Source: Chryseobacterium sp. StRB126 (GTDB taxonomy: Bacteria > Bacteroidota > Bacteroidia > Flavobacteriales > Weeksellaceae). Taken from it: a stretch of DNA of 64,000 bases. The DNA is taken from positions 744,001 through 808,000 of the forward strand of contig NZ_AP014624.1 in the NCBI RefSeq assembly GCF_000829375.1, written 5' to 3'. Each line of letters begins with the position of its first letter. Position 1 is the first letter of the stretch. Below the pieces are notes generated by a model. The model did not search any database. It saw only the letters and a program-made list of their open reading frames with translations, and was not told where the DNA came from. Both the position numbers and the translations under genes were made by a program. This document shows positions 5,973 through 35,719 of the stretch, one piece after another.

Positions 5973-6419
5973 TTATGAAAGGAGCTTTTTAACCATCTCG
6001 GAAATGCTTTTTCCGTCTGATTTTCCGGCTAATGCTTTTGAAGCAACTCCCATTACCTTTCCTAAATCTTTCATAGATTCAGCTCCGGTTTCTGAAATTA
6101 TATTTTTAATTTCTGTTTCTAATTCTTCTGCAGAAAGCTGTTTTGGTAAAAACTTCTCAATAACTTTCATCTGAGCTTCTTCCACTTCTGCAAGATCTTG
6201 TCTTCCCTGGGCAGAAAACTGCTCAAAAGAATCTTTACGTTGCTTAATCATTCTCTGAAGAATAGCAATTTCCTGTTCTGCAGAAACTTCAGCACCTCTG
6301 GCTTCTGTTTGTAAAAGAAGAATTTGAGATTTTACAGCACGAAGAGAGTCTAAAGCAACTCTGTCTTTCTCTCTCATCGCAGTTTTTATAGCTTCGCTTA
6401 TAATATTTTCTAAACTCAT
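5973..6419 (-). CDS. GatB/YqeY domain protein
   Basis: A 148-residue helical protein of the GatB/YqeY family, with the usual start (LENIISEAIKTAMREKD), central ARGAEVSAEQEIAILQRMIKQR and C-terminal KDLGKVMGVASKALAGKSDG blocks. The domain is related to the tRNA-binding C-terminus of GatB; stand-alone YqeY has no settled function. Length is normal. It sits 116 bases downstream of ftsZ on the same strand and is followed by a terminator, so it is probably the last gene of the cell-division transcript or a short downstream unit. Confidence 0.9.
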   Translation of the reverse strand: MSLENIISEAIKTAMREKDRVALDSLRAVKSQILLLQTEARGAEVSAEQEIAILQRMIKQRKDSFEQFSAQGRQDLAEVEEAQMKVIEKFLPKQLSAEELETEIKNIISETGAESMKDLGKVMGVASKALAGKSDGKSISEMVKKLLS

Positions 6420-25803: not shown

Positions 25804-25962
25804 TTAACTGAAAGGAGGAGGAGTTTGGCCTGTATTACCTGTTGTGCTCCCTCCGTTTCCATGACCATTTCCTTCTTTTTGATATATGTTACTTTGTAAA
25901 AAAGTAGATGTTGAATTGTTTGTATATACAAATCCTATTAATATTAATAAGAACTGAATCAT
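25804..25962 (-). CDS. Small hydrophobic-leader peptide, array member 7 (divergent)
   Basis: Last gene of the seven-gene array; 52 residues. It starts MIQFLLILIGFVY like the others, then diverges: the middle is Ser/Thr/Asn rich and the acidic DTGG block is replaced by a glycine-rich GNGHGNGGST. It ends TGNTGQTPPPFS without the usual lysines. Starts 18 bases after member 6. Family unknown; reality is supported by the shared N-terminus and regular spacing. Confidence 0.65.
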   Translation of the reverse strand: MIQFLLILIGFVYTNNSTSTFLQSNIYQKEGNGHGNGGSTTGNTGQTPPPFS

Positions 25963-25980
25963 AGGTATTTGTTTTATCTG

Positions 25981-26136
25981 TTATTTTTTAGGAGGTATTG
26001 GATGTGTTTCTCCTCCAGTATCAAAATTTTCATCAAGATCTGTACTACTTTGTACAGCTATTTGATTATTGTTGGTTGTGTTTAAGTTGTTATTTGGATG
26101 TGCGAATCCTAGTAACATCAATAAAAAATAGAGCAT
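25981..26136 (-). CDS. Small hydrophobic-leader peptide, array member 6
   Basis: 51 residues: MLYFLLMLLGFAHPNNN, a Thr/Asn-rich middle, then FDTGGETHPIPPKK. The start is set at 26136, because that ATG lines up with the starts of all siblings; a longer in-frame extension overlaps member 5 and is not conserved. 25-base gap to member 5. Its DNA is nearly identical to member 5 over much of its length, indicating recent duplication. Confidence 0.75.
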   Translation of the reverse strand: MLYFLLMLLGFAHPNNNLNTTNNNQIAVQSSTDLDENFDTGGETHPIPPKK

Positions 26137-26161
26137 ATAATAGTAAGTGGGTATTAGTAAT

Positions 26162-26320
26162 TTATTTTCTTGGAGGAATAATTTGTCCTGTTTCTCCTCC
26201 AGTATCAAAATTTTCATCAAGATCTGTACTACTTTGTACAGTTATTTGATTATTGTTGATTGTATTTAAGTTGTTATTTGGATGTGCGAATCCTAGTAAT
26301 ATCAATAAAAAATGTATCAT
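26162..26320 (-). CDS. Small hydrophobic-leader peptide, array member 5
   Basis: 52 residues: MIHFLLILLGFAHPNNN leader, Asn/Thr/Gln-rich middle, then FDTGGETGQIIPPRK. The hydrophobic stretch of about 11 residues has no preceding Lys/Arg, unlike a usual signal peptide. 17 bases separate it from member 4. Function unknown. Confidence 0.75.
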   Translation of the reverse strand: MIHFLLILLGFAHPNNNLNTINNNQITVQSSTDLDENFDTGGETGQIIPPRK

Positions 26321-26337
26321 AAAGGTTATTTTAGTTG

Positions 26338-26493
26338 TTATTTTTTAGGTGGAGTCTGCGTTGTTTCACCACCAGTATCAAGTCCCTCTCCAAGTCCTGT
26401 ACTACTTGGTATGGTTACTTGGTTATTGTTGATTGTATTTAAGTTATTATTTGGATGTGCGAATCCTAGTAATATCAATAAGAATTGTATCAT
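26338..26493 (-). CDS. Small hydrophobic-leader peptide, array member 4
   Basis: 51 residues: MIQFLLILLGFAHPNNN, middle with NNNQVTIPSS, then GLDTGGETTQTPPKK. Shares the leader and middle with members 5 and 6 (AHPNNNLNT). 20-base gap from member 3. Function unknown. Confidence 0.75.
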   Translation of the reverse strand: MIQFLLILLGFAHPNNNLNTINNNQVTIPSSTGLGEGLDTGGETTQTPPKK

Positions 26494-26513
26494 AAGTAGA
26501 GTATTAATTAATG

Positions 26514-26681
26514 TTATTTTTTAGGAGGTAGTACGTGGCCTGTATCGCCTCCGGTGTCTAATCCTTCACCGGAAGTAGTATTATTGTATATTGTTACTGA
26601 AGTTTGGCTGTTGCTATTTGTATTCTGGATGTTGTCATTTGGAAAGGACAGTCCTAGCAACATTAATATAAGCTGTATCAT
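26514..26681 (-). CDS. Small hydrophobic-leader peptide, array member 3
   Basis: 55 residues: MIQLILMLLGLSFPNDN, an Asn/Ser/Thr-rich middle, then GLDTGGDTGHVLPPKK. More diverged in DNA than members 4-6, yet it keeps the leader, the DTGG core and the PPKK end, which argues for selection on the protein. 12-base gap from member 2. Confidence 0.72.
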   Translation of the reverse strand: MIQLILMLLGLSFPNDNIQNTNSNSQTSVTIYNNTTSGEGLDTGGDTGHVLPPKK

Positions 26682-26693
26682 AATTGTTATGGT

Positions 26694-26843
26694 TTATTTT
26701 TTCGGGAGAACTTGAATTGTATCTCCGCCAGTGTCTGGATTTATTCCAATGGTTGTACTCTGTACAGTTGTAGATTTTGAATGAATCTGAATATCTTGAT
26801 TTGGAGACAAAAAGCCAATCAAGATCAATAAAAAATGAAGCAT
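26694..26843 (-). CDS. Small hydrophobic-leader peptide, array member 2
   Basis: 49 residues, the shortest: MLHFLLILIGFLSPNQD, middle rich in Ser/Thr, then PDTGGDTIQVLPKK. One of the tail prolines is lost. 25-base gap from member 1. Function unknown. Confidence 0.7.
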   Translation of the reverse strand: MLHFLLILIGFLSPNQDIQIHSKSTTVQSTTIGINPDTGGDTIQVLPKK

Positions 26844-26868
26844 TTGGTATAAATTTTATGATGTTGAA

Positions 26869-27027
26869 TTATTTTTTCGGAGGCAGAGGGGTTGTTTCTC
26901 CACCTGTATCAATACCCTCTCCAAGTTCTGCACTTTGCGACGCTGTAATATCTTGAGAGGTATAAGTAGTATTTAGATTGTTATGAGGAAATAAGAACCC
27001 CAAGAGTGTTAATAAAGTCTGAATCAT
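26869..27027 (-). CDS. Small hydrophobic-leader peptide, array member 1 (first transcribed)
   Basis: 52 residues: MIQTLLTLLGFLFPHNN, Thr/Ser middle, then GIDTGGETTPLPPKK. It is the promoter-proximal gene of the array. Upstream, within 30 bases, lies only the terminator of the neighbouring secreted-protein gene and a near-consensus TATTTTCG (plus 27048-27055) that could be its -7 element. Confidence 0.72.
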   Translation of the reverse strand: MIQTLLTLLGFLFPHNNLNTTYTSQDITASQSAELGEGIDTGGETTPLPPKK

Positions 27028-27057
27028 ATTATTAGAATTTTAATTCCCGAAAATAAT

Positions 27058-27089
27058 AAAAAAGCGAAGAGAATCTTCGCTTTTTTATG
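27058..27089 (-). terminator. Terminator after the basic secreted protein gene
   Basis: GCGAAGA pairs with TCTTCGC around a 3-base loop, flanked by A and T tracts so it can act on both strands. It ends the 27122-27439 gene on the minus strand. Confidence 0.75.
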
Positions 27090-27121
27090 ATGATATATTG
27101 AGTGTTTTTAGTTTTTTTTGA

Positions 27122-27439
27122 TTAATTGCAGCTAGAACAATAAGATCGATCCACATATTGTTTACTGTTGCCAGAATAATAATAACATCCACCTCTTGAG
27201 CCCACATACAATTGATTTCCGTTGTAAGAGCAGCCCTGGCTTCTGGAAGTAGAGGAATAAGATCTTGGAGAAGAATAGCTTGATCTTGTTGATTTGCTTT
27301 TTCTGTTGGTTTTAGTCTTTCCTTTTCTTGGCTTTTTAAATAATTCTTTGGCAGAAGCAGTGCTGACAGGGGATGCGGAAATGTTTGCAGGTAATAAAAG
27401 TCCAAGTCCTAAAAGACCTGTGAAAAGTAGTTTTTTCAT
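27122..27439 (-). CDS. Secreted basic Ser/Tyr-rich protein, PBCV-basic-adaptor-like
   Basis: A 105-residue protein with an N-terminal Sec signal peptide (MKKLLFTGLLGLGLLLPAN, probably cut after NISAS), a highly basic Lys/Arg/Ser linker with SSYSSPRSYSST-like repeats, and a compact C-terminal unit: LYVGSRGGCYYYSGNSKQYV followed by DRSYC. That unit resembles the PBCV-specific basic adaptor domain (Y-x-G-x-RGG-x-YY...K-x-YV), known from large algal viruses and scattered bacteria, function unknown. Cys residues could form disulfides after export. The domain assignment is from memory and moderate in confidence. Confidence 0.65.
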   Translation of the reverse strand: MKKLLFTGLLGLGLLLPANISASPVSTASAKELFKKPRKGKTKTNRKSKSTRSSYSSPRSYSSTSRSQGCSYNGNQLYVGSRGGCYYYSGNSKQYVDRSYCSSCN

Positions 27440-27514
27440 AGTATTTGTTTTTTAGTTATATAGAATAGTTTTCATGGTTATTCAATAGTTGTGTAAACTA
27501 TTTGAGGAAGATAA

Positions 27515-28582
27515 TTAATAATGTTCCAACGTTTTATGAAGCTCTTCTCTGAAGTTATATATTTCATCAAGACTGCTCAGTAAAGTTTTTTCACCAGAGT
27601 CTTTACCCTTATGGAATGTTTCAATATATTTATTGGCAGTGTTAAAATGCAGTCTGCAAAGTGGTTTTCTGTTATTATCATCCAACAAAATTCCAAAATA
27701 AGATAAAGTGTCTCTATAGGCTATACGGGTTGAAGGAATTTTTTCTCTCATTATAGCTTTTACAATTTGAAAACCTTCAAGTTCTTCTTCCGTGGTTACA
27801 ATTTTAGAATCATTATTCTCATCAATAGATTGGGGTGTTTTTACTTCATCATCCTGTTTTTCAATTTGCTCATTAATGCTTAATGCAGATTTAAGTCTAA
27901 AGCTAATAGACTCATTGATGGAGGTCGTCAATGCCTTTTTAGTATACTCTTTAAAAGAAACTAATCTGCTTGCAGTAATAGGCTTATCAAAGAATCTGTT
28001 TACCAGAAGTTTAACAATCTCATCAGAAGGAGTTTCTATTTCCTTTTCAAATTCCTTTCTTATAGCTTTAATATATTTCAGTGCTTCCGCAGAATCCAAA
28101 ATACTTTCAAGATTATAGTCTTTCTTGGTAAAGCTTTCCAGTATTTTAATGGAGCTGTCTTTTAAATCTTCAATATTAATGGTGAAGAATGGTTTTTCAT
28201 CCATAATATTGGGTTTTTCCAAATCCGTATAAAAGTTGTAGACAATACCATTGGTTAACACACCGAATCTCGTTTTCGAAACATGGTAATATCTGTGAAG
28301 TTGTGAATTGTGAGCGTCTACACTTTCCTTCCAATGTTTACATTCGATAATAAAGATGGGTTCGTCATTATTTTTGATAACGTAATCTACTTTTTCCCCT
28401 TTTTTCGTTCCAATATCACAAACATGTTCCGGAATTACTTCGGTAGGGTTAAAGATATCATACCCCAGAATTTGTATGAAAGGCATCACAAAGGCATTTT
28501 TTGTTGCTTCTTCAGTAGAAATCTGATCCTTCAGACCGATGACTTTCTGATGTAACTGGTCCAATTTAATTTTAAGATCCAT
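27515..28582 (-). CDS. Restriction-endonuclease-like protein (HsdR N-terminal type, PD-(D/E)XK)
   Basis: A 355-residue protein from the ATG at 28582. Residues 15-130 resemble the N-terminal nuclease domain of type I restriction subunit R: MPFIQILGYDIFNPTEVIPE, then EKVDYVIKN (Asp) and IFIIECKHW (the E-x-K of the PD-(D/E)XK core), then LHRYYHVSKTRFGVLTNG. No helicase follows; the C-terminal half is helical and of unknown role. There is no methylase or specificity gene nearby, so it is not a complete restriction system. The upstream in-frame ATG at 28609 overlaps the preceding gene and is less likely. Confidence 0.75.
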   Translation of the reverse strand: MDLKIKLDQLHQKVIGLKDQISTEEATKNAFVMPFIQILGYDIFNPTEVIPEHVCDIGTKKGEKVDYVIKNNDEPIFIIECKHWKESVDAHNSQLHRYYHVSKTRFGVLTNGIVYNFYTDLEKPNIMDEKPFFTINIEDLKDSSIKILESFTKKDYNLESILDSAEALKYIKAIRKEFEKEIETPSDEIVKLLVNRFFDKPITASRLVSFKEYTKKALTTSINESISFRLKSALSINEQIEKQDDEVKTPQSIDENNDSKIVTTEEELEGFQIVKAIMREKIPSTRIAYRDTLSYFGILLDDNNRKPLCRLHFNTANKYIETFHKGKDSGEKTLLSSLDEIYNFREELHKTLEHY

Positions 28583-28586
28583 AGTT

Positions 28587-28925
28587 TTAATTTTTAAGCG
28601 TTTCATCAATGATTTCGGCAGTTGGGGCGTTCTGTTTTACGGATTCAATTCCGTTTTCCATTCCGGATTTTGAACTGTATAATTGACTTTTACCAATAAT
28701 TTCTCCATTTCTGGCTTTTAAAACAAAATACTCTTTTTCATTCACTGCAATTCTTCTGTCATATCTTGTATCATCCTGAGAGTTGGTTTTAACAGATTCA
28801 ATTCCTTTTTGACAAGATACTTTCTGAACATATCCTTCACTGGTTAAAATAATTTCTCCATTTTTGGCTTTCAGATTGAATTGATATTCTTTATTGACTC
28901 TTTGAGTGATTATAAATTTTCCCAT
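28587..28925 (-). CDS. YegP family protein (DUF1508, two repeats)
   Basis: A 112-residue protein made of two DUF1508 repeats. The first reads FNLKAKNGEIILTSEGY, the second FVLKARNGEIIGKSQLY with GMENGIESVKQNAP. E. coli YegP has the same tandem layout; function is unknown. It overlaps the YidD-like gene upstream by 35 bases and stops 4 bases before the nuclease-like gene, so the whole set is probably one operon. Confidence 0.88.
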   Translation of the reverse strand: MGKFIITQRVNKEYQFNLKAKNGEIILTSEGYVQKVSCQKGIESVKTNSQDDTRYDRRIAVNEKEYFVLKARNGEIIGKSQLYSSKSGMENGIESVKQNAPTAEIIDETLKN

Positions 28926-29211
28926 GATTATTATTTATAATTAATCTTTCTGAAATCTCTGTTTCATTAAGAATTTGTTGATTAGGTAGAATAACTTGAA
29001 TTTTTCCTGAAGGATTTTCCAAAATATAGGCACCGGATCTACAGTTTTTAAAACGGTACTTGAAAGCTTTTAATCCGGAAATAAATCCTTCATTTATGGT
29101 TTTTTCATATACGTGCTTGGAACAGCTGGTTTTGAAAATACACTTCCTTCTTTTTGCCGGAGGAATTACCAGCCAATACATTTTAATAAGAAGAATTAAT
29201 AGATTTTTCAT
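28891..29211 (-). CDS. YidD-like membrane insertion efficiency factor
   Basis: A 106-residue protein. The first 60 residues fit YidD: hydrophobic/amphipathic start (LLILLIKMYWLVIPPAKRRKC), CIFKTSCSKHVYE (the conserved C-x-(x)-P/T-x-CS block) and a basic KYRFKNCRSGAY. In other bacteria YidD aids YidC-dependent insertion and lies near rpmH/rnpA; here it stands in an accessory operon, so it may be a second copy. The C-terminal 40 residues are longer than usual and overlap the next gene. Confidence 0.65.
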   Translation of the reverse strand: MKNLLILLIKMYWLVIPPAKRRKCIFKTSCSKHVYEKTINEGFISGLKAFKYRFKNCRSGAYILENPSGKIQVILPNQQILNETEISERLIINNNHGKIYNHSKSQ

Positions 29212-29446
29212 TTTCTCCTTTACTAAAAACCACCATTTGGTAAGAAGTCATATAGCCTGGTTTGTGTCCAAGGCCAAAACAGCCTTCTACAGGTTGTATA
29301 TAGGTGGATACACTTTCCAGTCTTATATATTCCCAGCCATCATTGGTATGAACTTTTATTAAATTGTCTAGTTGTTCTGCAATATTTTTTGCGCTCATAT
29401 TTTGTTGATTGGCAGTTGCAACAAATGGTATTACTTTGTATTCCAT
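29183..29446 (-). CDS. DUF4177 domain protein
   Basis: An 87-residue protein starting at 29446 (MEYKVIPFVA); the upstream in-frame ATG at 29512 lies before the promoter element and is rejected. The pattern EYKVIPF...AEQLDNLIKVHTNDGWEYIRLESV is that of DUF4177, a small soluble domain of unknown function. First gene of a four-gene minus-strand operon with the YidD-like, YegP-like and nuclease-like genes; its end overlaps the next gene by 29 bases. Confidence 0.78.
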   Translation of the reverse strand: MEYKVIPFVATANQQNMSAKNIAEQLDNLIKVHTNDGWEYIRLESVSTYIQPVEGCFGLGHKPGYMTSYQMVVFSKGENEKSINSSY

Positions 29447-29469
29447 AATTGTTTTTTTTTTTAACACTT

Positions 29470-29477
29470 CAAAAATA
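29470..29477 (-). promoter_or_regulatory. Promoter -7 element of the DUF4177 operon
   Basis: TATTTTTG on the minus strand matches TAnnTTTG and lies 23 bases before the ATG at 29446. Confidence 0.45.
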
Positions 29478-29557
29478 TGAGCATTAAGTTTCGGTGCATT
29501 ACGGAAAACCATAAATAGGATTACTTAACCTGAGTTCGGGATAAGACATTTCTGTTT

Positions 29558-29653
<96 letters not shown>

Positions 29654-29725
29654 CCAGGAGTGGGAAGTGGGTTGAGTTTAAAAAACCACTTGCAACCCAG
29701 TAATGTATTATTTGAATTAGTCAAG

Positions 29726-30903
29726 ACTTAATCTGACAGTTATAATCAAATTAAATAACTTTAAAACAGATTAAGTATTATGACAACACAACAAAAAATC
29801 ATCAAAAACAAGTTAGGTGTACTTGAATTAGCACAACATTTAGGAAATGTATCCAAAGCTTGTAAAGTAATGGGCTATTCCCGAGACAGTTTTTATCGAT
29901 TCAAAGAACTGTATGAGCAAGGAGGTGAATTAGCATTACAGGAAATCTCCAGAAGAAAGCCAGTATTAAAGAATCGTGTAGATGAAGTTATTGAAAAGGC
30001 TGTTGTTGATATAGCCATTGAAAACCCTGCTTTGGGGCAGCTTAGAGTGAGTAATGAACTTAAAAAGAAAGGGTTGATCGTATCCCCAGGCGGGGTCAGA
30101 GGTATTTGGTTAAGACACGATCTACATACGTTTAAACTAAGATTAAAAGCCTTGGAAGCCAAATCCGCTCAAGATGGTATAGTCCTTACTGAATCTCAAC
30201 TTTCAGCACTAGAAAGAGCCAAGGAGGAGAAAAAAGCTCATGGAGAAATTGAAACTCATCATCCTGGATATTTAGGAGCTCAAGACACTTATTATGTAGG
30301 CAATATCAAAGGAGTTGGACATATTTATCAGCAAACTTTTATTGACACGTATTCTAAAGTAGTATTTGCAAAGCTATATGACCGTAAAAATGCTCTTATT
30401 GCTGCTGACATGCTTAATGATCAGGTAGTTCCGTTCTTTGAGCAACAGGAACTTCGTTTACTCAGAATTTTAACAGACAGAGGAACGGAATACTGTGGAA
30501 TAAGAGAACAGCATGAATACCAGCTTTATTTAGCCATTGAAGATATTGATCACACGAAGACCAAGGCTAAAAGCCCTCAGACCAACGGCATTTGTGAACG
30601 TTTTCACAGGACAATACAGGAAGAGTTTTATGCCATAGCTTTCAGAAAGAAAATTTACAGAAGTATTGAAGAGCTGCAATTAGACTTAAACAGCTGGCTG
30701 TCGTATTACAATAATGAAAGAACGCATACAGGAAAACATTGTTACGGTAAAACACCGATGCAGACGTTTTTGGATAGTAAACCTATTGCAAAAGAGAAAT
30801 TATTGGAAACTCTTGCAGAGGAACAAAAAATCCTTACTTTTGGAAGTAAGGATAATATTGGATAACTGACAATTATTTTTAAACCCTAACTGTCAGATCA
30901 AGT
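29726..30903 (+). mobile_element. IS481-type insertion sequence
   Basis: A single transposase gene is bracketed by a 17-bp inverted repeat, ACTTAATCTGACAGTTA at 29726-29742 and TAACTGTCAGATCAAGT at 30887-30903 (16 of 17 match). The true ends may lie further out: TGTA at 29704 and TACA ending at 30916 fit the 5'-TG...CA-3' rule. No clear target duplication is seen. It appears intact. Confidence 0.8.
29780..30865 (+). CDS. IS481 family transposase
   Basis: A 361-residue DDE transposase. Residues 10-110 hold helix-turn-helix domains (KACKVMGYSRDSFYRF and a second HTH ending VSPGGVRGIWLRHDL); residues 155-345 form an RNase H-like integrase core. Catalytic residues: D169 (GAQDTYYVG), D233 (LTDRGTEYCG) and E273 (TNGICERFHRT). 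Full length with no stop or frameshift, so the element may still be active. It lies on the strand opposite to the flanking genes. Confidence 0.93.
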   Translation: MTTQQKIIKNKLGVLELAQHLGNVSKACKVMGYSRDSFYRFKELYEQGGELALQEISRRKPVLKNRVDEVIEKAVVDIAIENPALGQLRVSNELKKKGLIVSPGGVRGIWLRHDLHTFKLRLKALEAKSAQDGIVLTESQLSALERAKEEKKAHGEIETHHPGYLGAQDTYYVGNIKGVGHIYQQTFIDTYSKVVFAKLYDRKNALIAADMLNDQVVPFFEQQELRLLRILTDRGTEYCGIREQHEYQLYLAIEDIDHTKTKAKSPQTNGICERFHRTIQEEFYAIAFRKKIYRSIEELQLDLNSWLSYYNNERTHTGKHCYGKTPMQTFLDSKPIAKEKLLETLAEEQKILTFGSKDNIG

Positions 30904-30916
30904 TGTGGCTATTACA

Positions 30917-31054
30917 TATTATTCCTTAAAGACAGCTTCATCAAATTTTACGGCAACGTCAGAAATTATAGTTGCGATAGTAACTTCCAGCCTCACTCTT
31001 CCGGCTTCCAGCCTATTATCCTTAATTTTATTATTTCGAACTCGGGTTATTTAA
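30917..31054. repeat. Repeat-like intergenic remnant
   Basis: No gene is called. On the minus strand a short frame without a start reads ISDVAVKFDEAVFKE and stops near 30923; before it come CTGGAAG words (plus strand CTTCCAGCC, twice). This looks like a dispersed Chryseobacterium-type repeat next to the insertion element rather than a functional gene. Confidence 0.35.
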
Positions 31055-31085
31055 TAAAAAAACCTTCCAGAAATGCTGAAAGGTT
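31055..31085 (-). terminator. Terminator after the response-regulator gene
   Basis: On the minus strand AACCTTTCAG pairs with CTGGAAGGTT (one non-standard pair) around a 5-base loop and is followed by seven T; 25 bases after the regulator stop. Confidence 0.75.
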
Positions 31086-31109
31086 ACTCGTATTTTGTTG
31101 AGATGTAAG

Positions 31110-31773
31110 TCATATAATGCCCATGTCCTTACAGATGACAATCAATTCAATATTATTTTTGGCGCCGAGTTCAAAGCGGAGATCATTTAATCTTTTTTCG
31201 ATAGCACTTCTACTATCCGGACTTATTTTATTTTCTTTAAAATGTTGTTCGATCTCACTTTGTTTCCACCCTTTAGAAAGTAGCTCAATAAGGGTCTCAT
31301 CATATTCTGTAAACTCAAAAGATGTGTTTCGGATAGAATTTAAAATCTCTTGTGGAAGAACGGTTTCACCGGAAAAGACTTTCTTGATGGTGTTTTTTAA
31401 ATCTTTACCATCATTTCTTCCTTTACTTACAAAACCATTAATGTTCTGTACTTTAAAAAGATCATCAATTATTTTAGGTTTCTTTTCTATAGAAAAAGCA
31501 ATAATTTTTAAATTCGGCTGGATTTTTTTTGACTTCTTCGATTAATTTTTGACCTGAATTTATTTTTTGCTCTATATGATCTTTATCGAAAGATAAGTCA
31601 GTAATTAATAGGTCATAAGAAATATTGTTGGTAGCTGCGGCTTTTATTTTTTGTAATGCTTCATCACAATAATTTACAAAATCATAATTCTGAATTTGTA
31701 ATTCTGTAAGGGTATTTACGACACCAAGGTTTCGGACTTCGTGATCTTCGGCTATGAGAACTTTTTTAAACAT
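31110..31773 (-). pseudogene. LuxR/NarL-like response regulator with a frameshift in an A8 tract
   Basis: The 5' part encodes a receiver domain: acidic pocket VLIAEDH (D10) and phospho-acceptor D59 (LLITDLSF). After EEVKK the frame breaks at a run of eight A on the minus strand (plus 31523-31530). With seven A the reading continues as IQPNLKIIAFSIEKKPK to residue 220, including a FVSKG segment and a C-terminal helix-turn-helix (LIELLSKGWKQSEIEQHF) and stop at 31110. As written the protein stops at residue 99, without DNA-binding domain. It overlaps the sensor kinase gene by 8 bases. Causes: real mutation, slippage-restored expression or a sequencing error. Confidence 0.85.
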
Positions 31774-33415
31774 ATTTTGCTTGTATTGGAACGGTTATTC
31801 GAATAATTAATCCACCTGAAGGATTTTTCTCAAAAGTAATATCTCCTCCAATGTTTTCAATACGGAAAACCGTATTATGTATTCCTACTCCTTTTTGTTG
31901 GTCTACATTATTAATCCCTACACCATTGTCTGTATATCTTATTTTTAAACGGTCATTGTTTTTTTCAAATCGTACTGAGGCAAGTTTTGCCTGGCTGTGC
32001 TTTTTCATATTTACAAGAATCTCTCTCAAAATATAATAAAGCTCAAGTTGTGTATTATAGGAAATATTTTCCCAGATGTTTTCTTTATATCCTACCAATA
32101 AAACCTTTTGTTGGTCTGAAGAATAAGATGTGATCATATTGATAAAGCGTAACGCAAAATCTTTCTCTGCGATATCCTCATGAGAGATATCTCTTGATTC
32201 TTCATACATTTTCTCAATATCATTAAGAATTCTGGTTTTGTCCATTTCTGGATTATTCTGAACATCAATCATCATATGATAAAGCCCATTTGCAACAACA
32301 TCATGAACTTTTTTAGACATTTTGAGCTGCGTATTTTTTACTTCGATTTCTTTTTCTTGCTGAAGTCTTTTTTTTCTTCTCCTATACCAGAACACACCTC
32401 CGATTAATGATAATGATAAGGTAGCAATACCAATATTTCGTCTTAAAAGATCAATTTCTTTCTTGGTATTTTCCATTTTTAATTTTTCAACATCAAACCT
32501 AATAATTGCAAACTGATTTTTTGCTTGATTTCTGGCAGTTTGCAGACTGTCATTAATGTATTTCAACTTTTGAAAGTTTTTCAGATAATTTATAGGTTCT
32601 AAAGTGATAATTCTTTCTAAGGCTAATATTTGATCATCAGGACTATTATCTTCTTCCGCAACAGCCAGCATTTTTTTTGCAAATAATAATGAGGTATCAG
32701 GATCTTTATCCAAATAATAGCTTGATAAAGTTTCATAACTTGAATTTTGTCCTTTTTTATCATTATTTATCCTACGTATTTCTAATGCTTTCAGTAACTC
32801 CGGTATGGGATTGTAATCTTTATTTCCGATATATTTGGCTTTTGCAAGGTTATTTAATGCCCTTGCATAGGTAGGAGCATCCTTTGTTTTAATGGCTTTA
32901 TTTAAATAGTTTTGTGCGCTTCTGTATTGTCCTAATGTTATTAAAACATCCCCAATATTATTATAATAAATATATTTACTAATGGTATCTTTTTGATTTA
33001 TATGCTTGAGGGCTTGGAGGTAATAATTAAAGGCATTTTCGTAGTTTTTTAAATAATTAGATGCTATAGCCATATTATTATAGTTTGCTGCCATTATTTT
33101 TTTTGACAGGCTATCACTATGCTCCAATTTAATAGCTTTATTAGATTCTAATGATGCTTCAATTCCTCCGAAGAAGTCTCCCTTTTCTGTTTGAATAATT
33201 GCCATATTGGCTAAAGAGCGGGCTGCTCCTATGGAATCATGAATTGTTAAATAATCATTTTTGGCTAAATTGAAATAGTAAAAAGCAGAATCTGAAGATT
33301 TTGAATCTCTGTAAATCGTGGCTTTTTTAAAGTTAATATTAATACCTTCATTTACATTATTTTTTTTGCAGGAAACAATAATTAATACCAATAATAAATA
33401 TATTGATTTTTTCAT
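31766..33415 (-). CDS. Lipoprotein-type TPR sensor histidine kinase
   Basis: A 549-residue sensor. Signal peptide with lipobox IVSC (Cys16); residues 30-290 hold about six tetratricopeptide-like repeats (for example ANYNNMAIASNYLKNYENAF); a membrane helix at about 327-345; then a phosphorylation helix with H371 in KKVHDVV and an HATPase domain with N-box VNMKKHSQA, DNGVGI and GVGIHNT. The TPR part should be outside the cytoplasm and may bind a peptide or protein. Partner of the overlapping response-regulator gene. A small peptide gene lies 65 bases upstream on the same strand. Confidence 0.9.
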   Translation of the reverse strand: MKKSIYLLLVLIIVSCKKNNVNEGININFKKATIYRDSKSSDSAFYYFNLAKNDYLTIHDSIGAARSLANMAIIQTEKGDFFGGIEASLESNKAIKLEHSDSLSKKIMAANYNNMAIASNYLKNYENAFNYYLQALKHINQKDTISKYIYYNNIGDVLITLGQYRSAQNYLNKAIKTKDAPTYARALNNLAKAKYIGNKDYNPIPELLKALEIRRINNDKKGQNSSYETLSSYYLDKDPDTSLLFAKKMLAVAEEDNSPDDQILALERIITLEPINYLKNFQKLKYINDSLQTARNQAKNQFAIIRFDVEKLKMENTKKEIDLLRRNIGIATLSLSLIGGVFWYRRRKKRLQQEKEIEVKNTQLKMSKKVHDVVANGLYHMMIDVQNNPEMDKTRILNDIEKMYEESRDISHEDIAEKDFALRFINMITSYSSDQQKVLLVGYKENIWENISYNTQLELYYILREILVNMKKHSQAKLASVRFEKNNDRLKIRYTDNGVGINNVDQQKGVGIHNTVFRIENIGGDITFEKNPSGGLIIRITVPIQAKYV

Positions 33416-33436
33416 TTTTTAGTTTTGTGCAAAATA

Positions 33437-33470
33437 TAAAAAAGAACAGATTTATACAATCTGTTCTTCT
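33437..33470 (-). terminator. Terminator or attenuator between the peptide gene and the kinase gene
   Basis: GAACAGAT pairs with ATCTGTTC, followed on the minus strand by TTTTTTATATTTT. It lies after the peptide stop (33481) and before the kinase start (33415), so kinase expression may depend on read-through or a separate promoter. Confidence 0.7.
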
Positions 33471-33480
33471 ATTATCTTAT

Positions 33481-33651
33481 TTATGGAGGGGTTTGCCCCG
33501 TATTTCCTCCAACGGGTCCGCCGTCGTCCATGCCTTGTTCAGATTCTGAATAAGTTACTACTATATCAGGTGTTTGATTATTATCAGTTGTTGTATGTGC
33601 GTTATTATTTGGGAATGCTAAACCTAATAGCATTAAAATAAACTGTATCAT
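33481..33651 (-). CDS. Small hydrophobic-leader peptide next to the sensor kinase
   Basis: 56 residues: MIQFILMLLGLAFPNNN, a Thr/Asn-rich middle, an acidic SESEQGMDDGGPVGGN block and the end TGQTPP. Same family as the arrays at 25.8-27 kb and 34.9-35.7 kb; closest to the two members with DDGGPVGG. It lies directly upstream of the TPR sensor kinase, separated by a hairpin. Function unknown. Confidence 0.75.
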   Translation of the reverse strand: MIQFILMLLGLAFPNNNAHTTTDNNQTPDIVVTYSESEQGMDDGGPVGGNTGQTPP

Positions 33652-33734
33652 TTTTTCAAAAAATTTATTGTTAAAGCATTCGTGTTCTTCCCCGCGAAAC
33701 AGATCGCAGATAGTATTACACGGTTAAAAAAATT

Positions 33735-33820
33735 GAAGCGCTTCTAAATTTTTTGGGAAGTGAACCTTCAAAAACGGAGGAGAAACATCTGCTTCCCAAC
33801 CCGGAGTTTTCCTCCGTTTT
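33735..33820. other. Structured intergenic segment
   Basis: Contains a perfect 10-base palindrome GAAGCGCTTC (33735-33744) and an 11-bp perfect stem AAAACGGAGGA (33771-33781) with TCCTCCGTTTT (33810-33820) around a 28-base loop. It lies in the 383-base divergent region between the kinase-linked peptide gene and the plus-strand gene at 34035. It could be an RNA structure or regulator site. Confidence 0.4.
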
Positions 33821-33931
33821 ATCTGGTGATTTTGAAATCAGTTTTGTAAATTTGTTTTTGTAATGTTTTGTTTTCCACTGATTTTCTGAAGCAAAGATGC
33901 GACAAGACGTGACGCAGGTGTTAGTCACGTT

Positions 33932-33959
33932 TTGGACATTGATGGACACGAATTGGACA
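33932..33959 (+). promoter_or_regulatory. Three direct repeats [TA]TGGACA, possible operator
   Basis: TTGGACA (33932), ATGGACA (33942) and TTGGACA (33953) are spaced 10 and 11 bases, one helical turn each. They lie 75-105 bases before the gene at 34035, where an activator would bind. A nearby ACGTGAC/GTCACGT hairpin sits at 33907-33930. Confidence 0.45.
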
Positions 33960-34034
33960 ATGGGGGCTTTATGGGAATCCGTAATGTGGTATGATTGAAA
34001 ATCGCCTATTTTGTAAAGACCGAAAAAACTATAT

Positions 34035-34847
34035 ATGTCCAAGAAAAAACTACTAATCCATGAGGTGTTCAGAAAAGCACGAGAAGACTTTCCTGCTGAA
34101 AGTACAAAGAGTGGTTGGGCCTCCGAATTGTCTGATCATTTTGAGAAGAACATGAACTTTATGATTAATGAGAAGACATTTACTAGATATTATGATACTT
34201 GTATACGTGATAACAAAGACGTCAACATAAAGGATGTCCTGATTCTTAACAAGCTTAGCCAATATGTGGGCTATAAAGACTTTTTTGATTTTTCCAGTAT
34301 GTTTATTAAAAAGGATGAAGAAGTCAATAAAACTACAGTTAGAATAAAGGTAGATGACCATGAAGAGTCTTTATCTGATAAAATCTCTAACATTTTTATC
34401 AATATAACAAATGAACAGCATTTTAAAGTGCCTGAGTTTGTAAAGCAAAATGGATTGGGGTTCGCCGGAGTTTTTTTGGTGATCAGTGTTTTAATTGGGA
34501 GTCATTATTCATCAAGAAGTAAAAAAAATACTCCTTTAAGTTTTTTCGGAGGAGTTTCTGATGAGAGAAGTTGTATGTTTTGGGATGATAGTGAGTATAA
34601 GTTAAGTGATTGTAATGATAAAAATCCTCAGCGCAGCCTGATTCCAAAAGATACGATTCAGCTTAAGTATTTTAAACGGATTACAAGAAAAGATACGCTT
34701 ACTTTAGAAAATGCCGTTGGGACAACCTGGTATTCAAAATTTAACGGAAATGTTGAATTTTTTACCATGGATGGCGTAGATCCGGATACCGGGCGGGAAT
34801 TGAGAGTTTCTACAGCTTATATTATTGAGAAGTATGCAGGGTATTAG
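34035..34847 (+). CDS. Uncharacterised bitopic membrane protein
   Basis: A 270-residue protein. Residues 1-100 look like a cytoplasmic domain (helical, FRKARED...TFTRYYDTCI), followed by charged residues, one membrane helix at about 147-163 (GFAGVFLVISVLIG) and an extracytoplasmic domain of about 105 residues with two Cys (CMFWDD, LSDCND). The layout resembles a signalling or anti-sigma-like protein, but I recognise no family. It stands between the kinase system and the second peptide array and has possible operator repeats upstream. Confidence 0.75.
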   Translation: MSKKKLLIHEVFRKAREDFPAESTKSGWASELSDHFEKNMNFMINEKTFTRYYDTCIRDNKDVNIKDVLILNKLSQYVGYKDFFDFSSMFIKKDEEVNKTTVRIKVDDHEESLSDKISNIFINITNEQHFKVPEFVKQNGLGFAGVFLVISVLIGSHYSSRSKKNTPLSFFGGVSDERSCMFWDDSEYKLSDCNDKNPQRSLIPKDTIQLKYFKRITRKDTLTLENAVGTTWYSKFNGNVEFFTMDGVDPDTGRELRVSTAYIIEKYAGY

Positions 34848-34852
34848 GAAAT

Positions 34853-34887
34853 AAAAAAGGCAGAATATAAAATATTCCGCCTTTATC
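34853..34887 (-). terminator. Terminator after the second peptide array
   Basis: AAAGGCGGAATAT pairs with ATATTCTGCCTTT on the minus strand (one G-U), followed by six T. Placed 11 bases after the last peptide stop. Confidence 0.78.
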
Positions 34888-34897
34888 AATAGAAATG

Positions 34898-35065
34898 TTA
34901 TTTTTTGGGTGGTAATTGCCCATTGTCTCCACTTGTATCTTCAGTTGATTCATCTGAATTAGAAACAGAGCTTTGTATTATTATTTCTGAATTATTAGAT
35001 GCTACTGTATTGATAGTGTTGTTTTGGAATGTTAAGCCCAATAGCATTAAAATAAATTGAATCAT
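34898..35065 (-). CDS. Small hydrophobic-leader peptide, second array member 4
   Basis: 55 residues: MIQFILMLLGLTFQNNT, then Ser/Asn-rich, an acidic DESTEDTSGDN block and GQLPPKK. The 44-base leader in front resembles the leader of the member before it (GTCTGG and ATTTTATTTTGAAAA words on the plus strand), so the duplication unit included upstream sequence. Confidence 0.75.
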   Translation of the reverse strand: MIQFILMLLGLTFQNNTINTVASNNSEIIIQSSVSNSDESTEDTSGDNGQLPPKK

Positions 35066-35109
35066 TTTTTGTCTGGATAAAATTTTATTTTGAAAATATA
35101 CTGTTAATA

Positions 35110-35286
35110 CTACTTTCTCGGAGGGGGTGTTTGTCCCGTTTCTCCTCCTACAGGTCCGCCATCATCATAACTAGGTGGTATTGCTGAGTAAACAGCTATA
35201 TAGGAATTTTGCTGATTACCGGCAGATGTTTTAGTATTGTCATTTGAAGGTACTAAACCTAATAAGATTAAAATAAATTGAATCAT
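35110..35286 (-). CDS. Small hydrophobic-leader peptide, second array member 3
   Basis: 58 residues, the longest: MIQFILILLGLVPSNDN, a middle with two Tyr-containing stretches, then YDDGGPVGGETGQTPPPRK. Belongs to the DDGGPVGG subgroup with the kinase-linked peptide. An 88-base gap precedes it. Confidence 0.75.
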   Translation of the reverse strand: MIQFILILLGLVPSNDNTKTSAGNQQNSYIAVYSAIPPSYDDGGPVGGETGQTPPPRK

Positions 35287-35374
35287 TTTGTCTGGTTAAA
35301 ATTTTTATTTTGAAAAATATGCTGCTCATTTATCAGGTAATAAATAACTCAAGTTTTCTTGGTTAAAAATATTA

Positions 35375-35548
35375 CTATCTTGGAGGAGGTAATTGTCCAG
35401 AGTTTCCACCAACAGGTCCGCCGTCGTCTGTACTTTGTTCAGATCCTGAATAAGTTGTTATTGTATAGATTGTTTGATTGTTATCTGTTCTATTGGTATT
35501 ATCATTTGAAAATGTTAAGCCGAACAGCATTAAAATAAATTGAATCAT
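35375..35548 (-). CDS. Small hydrophobic-leader peptide, second array member 2
   Basis: 57 residues: MIQFILMLFGLTFSNDN, middle TNRTDNNQTIYTITTYS, then DDGGPVGGNSGQLPPPR. DNA is close to that of the kinase-linked peptide gene (GTCCGCCGTCGTC word in both). Starts 3 bases after member 1. Confidence 0.75.
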   Translation of the reverse strand: MIQFILMLFGLTFSNDNTNRTDNNQTIYTITTYSGSEQSTDDGGPVGGNSGQLPPPR

Positions 35549-35551
35549 TTG

Positions 35552-35719
35552 TTATTTTTTAGGTGGAAGTATTTGTCCTGTTTCTCCACTCGTATCCTCA
35601 ACAAGTTCATTAGAGTTCACAAATGAATTTTGAGTTACTATTGCTACATTAGAGGTAGTTGCATTGGTAGCTTTGTTAGGGAATATCAATCCGAGAAGGA
35701 TTAAAATAAATTGAATCAT
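35552..35719 (-). CDS. Small hydrophobic-leader peptide, second array member 1
   Basis: 55 residues: MIQFILILLGLIFPNKA, a Thr/Asn/Val-rich middle, then EDTSGETGQILPPKK. It starts 29 bases after the msrA stop on the same strand with no terminator between, so this array may be read from the msrA promoter. Confidence 0.75.
   Translation of the reverse strand: MIQFILILLGLIFPNKATNATTSNVAIVTQNSFVNSNELVEDTSGETGQILPPKK

Follow-up and report, generated by a model that had tools for sequence, protein, structure and literature searches.

A putative peptide-pheromone two-component locus with a structured RNA and polymorphic peptide tails in Chryseobacterium and other Bacteroidota

The 64,000-nucleotide stretch of Chryseobacterium sp. 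StRB126 analyzed here (contig NZ_AP014624.1, hereafter the window) carries twelve small peptide open reading frames (ORFs), eleven in two arrays and one beside the gene for a histidine kinase (HK) with a TPR sensor domain. We found that the HK-adjacent ORF belongs to a conserved locus together with a response regulator (RR), a divergently transcribed gene for a protein we call X and a structured RNA, and that the C-terminal tail of the peptide co-varies with the TPR part of the kinase. We consider it likely that this locus is an autoregulated peptide-pheromone two-component system, in which an exported peptide is sensed by a periplasmic TPR kinase and which occurs as pherotypes. In the mechanism that we propose, a regulated promoter would give a discrete transcript made up of a ~235-nt structured RNA leader, the peptide ORF and a terminator. 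The hydrophobic leader of the peptide would export the precursor, and the C-terminal 13–18 residues would be the active signal, presumably after cleavage. The receptor of this tail would be the TPR domain, itself periplasmic, of the neighbouring lipoprotein-like HK; binding would bring about activation of the RR, which may feed back on the promoter with its repeats. X probably acts on this promoter as well, as another regulator bound to the membrane. Tail and TPR type would switch together as pherotypes. The tails in the window arrays appear to be those of other pherotypes, and with them the strain may mimic or interfere with the signals of its neighbours, which would give the peptides a role between cells. 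Coordinates are collected in Table 1.

Twelve small ORFs form a peptide family

The initial annotation of the window, made from its letters alone, had described twelve minus-strand ORFs of 49–58 aa, and all of them are present at the coordinates of Table 1. A profile search of the strain's own 5.5-Mb genome recovered the same twelve at E ≤1.4e-18, the next two matches lying at E 0.16 and 0.97. The leader is a short uncharged hydrophobic stretch in which an obvious cleavage site was not seen, and the GG motif is located in the tail. The start noted earlier, M-[IL]-x-hydrophobic without basic residues, extends to the relatives, 155 of 156 distinct HK-adjacent peptides having no K or R at residues 2–9. 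A GQxxPP[PK][KR] ending, also proposed there, holds for part of the members, several others finishing in TTPLPPKK, IQVLPKK or HPIPPKK. Cysteine is absent from all window peptides.

Selection on the protein, suspected from the outset, was supported by a median dN/dS of 0.49 among 72 HK-adjacent peptides (896 usable of 2556 pairs) and a dN/dS of 0.43 among the paralogues (44 usable pairs). Pooled pN/pS was 0.40 for the leader, 0.63 for the tail and 0.80 for the middle, so that the tail is under weaker selection than the leader. Searching 5.8 billion proteins with the peptide profile gave 441 at E ≤0.1, and the organism-named entries among the best 120 of these are Chryseobacterium hypothetical proteins. 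The expectation that annotation misses such genes was thus partly right, some relatives being NCBI hypothetical proteins already. Pfam gave no match at E ≤0.01 for the two of the twelve peptides that were scanned, and the best NCBIfam match of all twelve reached only E 0.13. Chance or repetitive ORFs were ruled out by frame conservation, dN/dS and distribution, and the twelve ORFs are by all appearances a genuine family.

The HK-adjacent peptide lies in a conserved locus

At all 41 loci of the genus (40 fetched plus the window) the order is divergent X, gap, peptide, TPR HK and RR. Peptide matches were found in 54 of 59 genus genomes, with exactly one copy in 50 of the 54; more than one occurs only in G000, G005, G007 and G052, and the extra copies sit between msrA and X or further downstream. 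In the window the first ORF of array 2 lies 32 nt downstream of msrA. The HK-adjacent copy (33481–33651) is evidently the ancestral member and both arrays are extra copies; the two arrays and the single copy had all been recognized before, but the standing of the single copy had not been foreseen. The adjoining RNA, kinase, regulator and protein X were all absent from the initial annotation.

Across Weeksellaceae the peptide is present in 76 of 197 genomes and 8 of 33 genera. A further 32 loci of the family were fetched, three from the same genus and 29 spread over seven other genera; they have the same layout with the exception of L137, to which we return below, L131 (X split), L133 (HK short), L149 (N run at the peptide–HK junction) and L151 (ends within the HK).

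Peptide tails co-vary with the TPR domain of the kinase

We compared distances among loci in a first set comprising 68 of the 72 peptides. Tail distance correlated with TPR distance at r 0.557, versus 0.306 with the kinase domain, 0.245 with the leader, and 0.11 and 0.287 with the X domains; leader against TPR gave 0.177. The tail–TPR partial correlation given the kinase was 0.533 (0/500 permutations). Along the HK, the correlation with the tail peaks at residues 140–179 (0.55) and is 0.24–0.30 from residue 300. With a ROK gene taken as the species marker, available in 28 loci, tail–ROK was −0.05 and tail–TPR 0.67.

A replicate was assembled from 63 loci with peptides outside the first set, some of them possibly close relatives of it, and gave tail–TPR 0.502, tail–kinase 0.329 and a partial correlation of 0.482 (0/1000). 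Its 47 Weeksellaceae-like loci gave tail–TPR 0.522, tail–kinase 0.122 and leader–TPR 0.069, and for the other 16, grouped in part by G+C, the partial correlation was 0.406 (2/1000). Individual pairs follow the same trend: L053/L072 (kinase distance 0.02) and L045/L067 (0.06) have near-identical kinases and different tails and TPRs. Where kinases are near, pairs sharing a tail of ≥12 residues have a TPR distance of 0.33 (n=8), versus 0.62–0.63 in the other 75 pairs; where kinases are far, the corresponding values are 0.38 (n=28) and 0.48–0.64.

The arrays carry tails found at other loci

Eight of the 11 extra window peptides have 13–18 consecutive tail residues identical to those of an HK-adjacent peptide of another locus; the same eight tails match their own HK-adjacent peptide over 2–9 residues only. 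Between matched array and foreign tails the codons differ at 3–10 positions, and the remainder of the matched peptides is partly alike (14/34 to 26/40 identical). On both grounds the matches seem to result from selection acting on the tail and not from a recent copying event. Across all four array genomes, 13 of 23 array tails match foreign ones, an L046 array ORF at 6393 without a tail being scored as a miss among the 23.

Polymorphic tails and expanded arrays resemble polymorphic sets of weapon and immunity genes, and one could picture bacteriocin-like or kin-discrimination peptides with the HK and RR as their immunity or sensing module. We regard this as very improbable, since the partner with which the tails co-vary is the sensor domain of the HK, and the constant genes of the locus are X, HK and RR only. 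The initial annotation had called the peptides secreted or membrane-associated and offered signals, toxins or surface peptides as roles. The signal reading is the one favoured by the linkage to a TPR HK and RR and by the tail–TPR co-variation; we found no pointer to a toxin or surface-peptide role, neither of which was tested directly.

Repeat precursors and the case for export

We searched for the HK in 30 genomes, 26 of them peptide- and RNA-negative and four from the genus without a peptide match, and found it at E ≤1e-40 in eight. In two of these, L307 and L309 from one genus, the same HK and RR are present and the neighbouring precursor has a lipoprotein-type signal and 66-bp units repeated in tandem (4.8 copies at 93% matches; 3.9 copies at 74%). 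The repeats encode tail-like modules (NTSGELIQLPRR..., QAQVGGEQGHI...). A third relative with a lipoprotein-type signal is L165. The signals of these three relatives suggest export; for the window peptides themselves export is a conjecture. In L303 (G011), L304 (G096) and L305 (G068) the HK lies next after msrA, and X, RNA and peptide are all missing from the interval, X elsewhere not having been searched for; L306 has a tail remnant only, L310 no recognizable peptide, and in L308 the HK itself is broken. The existence of genomes with the HK alone agrees with a pheromone system.

These precursors bear on a cell-autonomous explanation, by which the peptide would remain in the inner membrane as an anchored protein, its periplasmic tail serving the HK of the same cell as a dedicated subunit or inhibitor, in the manner of small membrane regulators of kinases, and no signal would leave the cell. 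The leader, short, hydrophobic and lacking an obvious cleavage site, would suit such a peptide, as would the co-variation of tail and TPR and the single copy in 50 of the 54 peptide-bearing genus genomes. Tandem tail-like repeats behind a lipoprotein signal speak against it, and a subunit dedicated to one kinase would not readily account for arrays of foreign tails or for exact tails common to loci with divergent kinases. We judge this explanation unlikely.

Several observations count against an exported pheromone. The co-variation could itself come from cell-autonomous contact between peptide and HK, and permuting the loci leaves in place any relatedness that the regression on the kinase does not take out. 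Over all orders of the replicate, tail–leader correlation (0.52) was as high as tail–TPR (0.502), and in the first set the tail also showed a weak partial correlation with the C-terminal domain of X (0.188, 0/500 permutations). No processing peptidase or exporter is linked to the locus, X, HK and RR being the only constant genes at the 41 genus loci, and the leader, without a basic n-region in 155 of 156 peptides, does not point to an obvious export route. For three of the 11 array tails no long match to a foreign tail was seen. Five HK-bearing genomes (L303, L304, L305, L306 and L310) are without an intact recognizable peptide in the stretch, and L137 (G204) possesses a peptide and an HK but neither X nor the RNA. 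Finally, the RR frame is interrupted in the window strain: similarity to a 220-aa orthologue is split over two frames, 31773–31483 and 31523–31113, orthologues being 220–221 aa. This interruption may be real or may be a sequencing or assembly error at an A run.

A structured RNA precedes the peptide ORF

The gap between X and the peptide is ~380 bp in the window and 340–400 bp in 67 of 71 loci, and it contains nearly invariant blocks. By its predicted limits, the RNA that we recognized there begins at the TTTG promoter and stops ~80 nt short of the peptide ATG. Its P3 pairing, GGGAAG/CTTCCC, crosses P2 as a pseudoknot, with the pairs formed in 99.5% of cells. In an alignment of 71 of 73 loci (A4) we counted 83 double-change cells versus 22.4 ± 5.4 in shuffled alignments (0/500) and 16–47 in slid versions. 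A separate G+C-rich set of 22 sequences (A8) gave 54 versus 17.8 ± 3.6 (0/500) and 9–17 slid; the tested helices were named from these same alignments, which favours them over the slid versions in both comparisons. A8 holds 22 of 26 stretches with G+C >0.45, L245, L252, L280 and L289 having been dropped; 16 of the 22 are titled Chitinophagales or Sphingobacteriales and six were grouped by G+C. RNAalifold on a MAFFT alignment returned the invariant P3 stem alone, without covariation, and counts on the named helices were used instead. The P5 hairpin before the ATG was recognized by eye, and in a simple tally 52–104 of 119 cells were paired in the P4 flanks. The palindrome GAAGCGCTTC of P4 is present in 70 of 71 A4 rows and was a required part of the pattern with which other orders were scanned; an RNA dimerization loop and an operator are possible roles for it.

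Rfam gave no match in the whole window at the gathering threshold; a permissive search gave nine matches, all below gathering, and a known RNA was rejected as they lay solely there. Our covariance model, R1, finds a single copy in the window genome and matches 84 of 197 Weeksellaceae genomes (9 of 33 genera). Thirteen of these genomes are RNA-positive and peptide-negative, and in 12 of the 13 a small ORF lies 75–86 nt downstream; L166 is a weak RNA match without an ORF. Conversely, R1 missed five of 76 peptide-positive family genomes, four of which hold the element in A4, G204 (L137) being the one that does not.

The −7 consensus of Bacteroidota promoters is TAnnTTTG. A TTTG sits directly before P1, and upstream of it are [TG]TCC repeats, phased at 11 bp in Weeksellaceae and replaced in other orders by GGAAT repeats. 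The latter are tandem, with a spacing of ~9–12 bp, and were seen upstream of a TATCTTTG promoter in L174, L233 and their relatives (Chitinophagales/Sphingobacteriales). At the other end, a simple script criterion detects a hairpin and T run after the stop codon of the peptide in 66 of 72 loci. With a promoter before the RNA and a hairpin after the peptide, the product is likely a discrete RNA that carries the peptide ORF, HK and RR being separate. An intrinsic terminator at P4 was rejected: in many Weeksellaceae T runs follow P4, yet Chitinophaga and Pedobacter are without them, and we therefore assign P4 to a leader or a dual RNA.

In an alternative explanation the RNA would be the main product, an sRNA or riboregulator to which the peptide ORF was minor or served as an element of translational control. 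A covarying RNA in three orders at a near-fixed distance from the ATG and the terminator-like hairpin after the ORF agree with this. The peptide is under purifying selection, the co-variation of tail and TPR concerns protein, and the array copies are without RNA, R1 having one match in the genome; we think an RNA-centred locus quite improbable, less so than a weapon-like one.

Kinase, regulator and protein X

After the TPR part of the HK a long helix runs through a predicted membrane region and is followed by HATPase_c. A lipobox-like Cys follows a hydrophobic stretch in 68 of 72 HK frames, and the TPR part precedes the predicted membrane helix. The best Foldseek matches of the TPR part are LGN–peptide complexes, in line with a sensor that reads a peptide. 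TPR-HK paralogues in the strain's own genome, sought as extra test cases, gave weak partial matches only. A transmembrane helix is predicted with low confidence at residues 135–155 of X, and its HTH-like N-terminal domain may be of the XRE/cI-like kind. Two tandem RRs (220 and 221 aa) follow the HK in 11 of the 41 genus loci (L045, L053, L054, L061, L066, L067, L072, L075, L076, L077 and L082).

The locus occurs in three orders of Bacteroidota

A strict RNA pattern run over named genomes gave at least 119 stretches, 80 of these with a title. Among the 80 titled stretches, Weeksellaceae are represented by Chryseobacterium, Epilithonimonas, Elizabethkingia, Empedobacter and Algoriella, and other groups by Chitinophaga, Niabella, Sediminibacterium, Flavihumibacter, Pedobacter and Mucilaginibacter. 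Three orders are thus represented: Flavobacteriales (Chryseobacterium), Chitinophagales (Chitinophaga) and Sphingobacteriales (Mucilaginibacter). The 119 listed stretches were picked by the RNA pattern alone, and where the stretch reaches they contain the HK in 89/89 and the RR in 72/72; X is present in 102/108. A small ORF was found in 112 of the 119, L280, an apparent chance match of the pattern, being counted among the 112, and a tail-like end in 110. Six of the seven misses are at a stretch end and one has an N run. RNA, peptide, HK and RR are found as a set in Chitinophaga, Niabella, Pedobacter and Mucilaginibacter, and several Chitinophaga peptides finish in DDTGGETGTIPPRK. Among 395 genomes of the order, 50 (from 4 of 108 genera) have the strict pattern, as do three of 256 genomes of the class, all three from the window's own genus, and the system therefore looks patchy outside Weeksellaceae.

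Relation to known signalling systems

We file the locus under peptide two-component signalling; its new parts are a family of peptides, a family of RNAs and a receptor that joins TPR and kinase. ComCDE and AgrBDCA are Gram-positive peptide two-component quorum-sensing systems with pherotypes. As in these, the peptide gene stands constantly next to those for HK and RR, the type of the signal varies in step with that of the sensor domain, more so than with the kinase domain, and the structured RNA of the locus recalls RNAIII of agr. Here, by contrast, the hosts are Gram-negative Bacteroidota, the sensor is a TPR domain after a lipobox-like N-terminus rather than polytopic, and a putative membrane HTH-like protein, X, belongs to the locus. 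Whereas the agr peptide is cyclized through Cys or Ser, no AgrB-like processing protein is constant at the 41 genus loci and the window peptides have no Cys; unlike ComCDE and Blp, there is no charged double-glycine leader and no constant peptidase-ABC exporter.

RNPP receptors are cytoplasmic and bind re-imported peptides. In Rap, PlcR, PrgX and Rgg, as probably here, a TPR-type domain reads the peptide, but the present TPR domain is predicted to lie outside the inner membrane and is fused to a kinase. The tandem signal repeats within one secreted precursor (L307, L309) are reminiscent of fungal alpha-factor-like multi-copy pheromone precursors; repeats occur here in two genomes of one genus only, other precursors being single-tailed. 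MgrB and SafA are single conserved small membrane regulators of kinases. They are short hydrophobic peptides that modulate a sensor kinase, as the present peptides would, whereas the present tails are polymorphic and matched to the sensor domain.

To our knowledge, the ligands of TPR sensor kinases are largely unknown. The locus offers a directly testable ligand–receptor pair with natural pherotype variants, along with a structured RNA outside Rfam and a strain that holds the signal types of other strains. If our interpretation is true, it is an unrecognized route of communication in three orders of Bacteroidota, and peptide quorum sensing in Bacteroidota, an open question, becomes amenable to experiments with synthetic peptides. 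A wider reading, which we advance tentatively and think slightly likelier to fail than to hold, is a Bacteroidota peptide language with a dual-function RNA–peptide gene, TPR-HK readers and interchangeable pherotypes. Strains with libraries of foreign signals would speak several dialects, receptor-only strains would listen, and TPR HKs of Bacteroidota would generally be peptide receptors. The literature that we searched, mostly as abstracts and with subscription papers under-covered, contained no description of the locus or of such a pheromone system in Bacteroidota (including PMC2864571, PMC11004935, PMC9950754 and PMC8895600).

Table 1. Positions in the window of the peptide ORFs and of the other features of the locus
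Feature	Coordinates	Strand	Description or basis
Peptide ORF beside HK	33481..33651	-	56 aa, tail DDGGPVGGNTGQTPP; position kept in 41/41 genus loci
Array 1, seven extra peptide ORFs	25804..27027	-	ORF calls, own-genome profile, tail matches
Array 1 members, first four	26869-27027, 26694-26843, 26514-26681, 26338-26493	-	
Array 1 members, last three	26162-26320, 25981-26136, 25804-25962	-	
Array 2, four extra peptide ORFs	34898..35719	-	ORF calls, own-genome profile, tail matches
Array 2 members	34898-35065, 35110-35286, 35375-35548, 35552-35719	-	
X–peptide intergenic region	33652..34034	-	11-bp-phased [TG]TCC repeats, promoter, RNA, P5 hairpin
-7-like TTTG	33895-33892	-	
Structured RNA core	33723..33895	-	P1, P2, P3 pseudoknot pair GGGAAG/CTTCCC, P4; covariation
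P4 palindrome of the RNA, GAAGCGCTTC	33735-33744	-	
Intrinsic-terminator-like hairpin and T run	33437..33469	-	between peptide and HK
TPR sensor HK	31766..33415	-	lipobox-like N-terminus, TPR helices 27-272, HATPase_c
RR, N-terminal part	31474..31773	-	frame interrupted; similarity resumes in another frame to ~31113
Protein X, divergent	34035..34847	+	HTH-like helical domain 3-89; C-terminal domain 178-268; 41/41 genus loci

Neighbouring genes

Just downstream of the RR is a 361-aa ORF (29780–30865, plus strand), which we take to be an integrase-core transposase-like gene; its family is empty in the other 40 genus loci. A Ser-rich small protein with a signal-peptide-like start is encoded at 27122–27439 (minus strand) and lies near the locus in 17 of the 41 genus loci. 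Array 1 starts directly after the hairpin that trails this gene.

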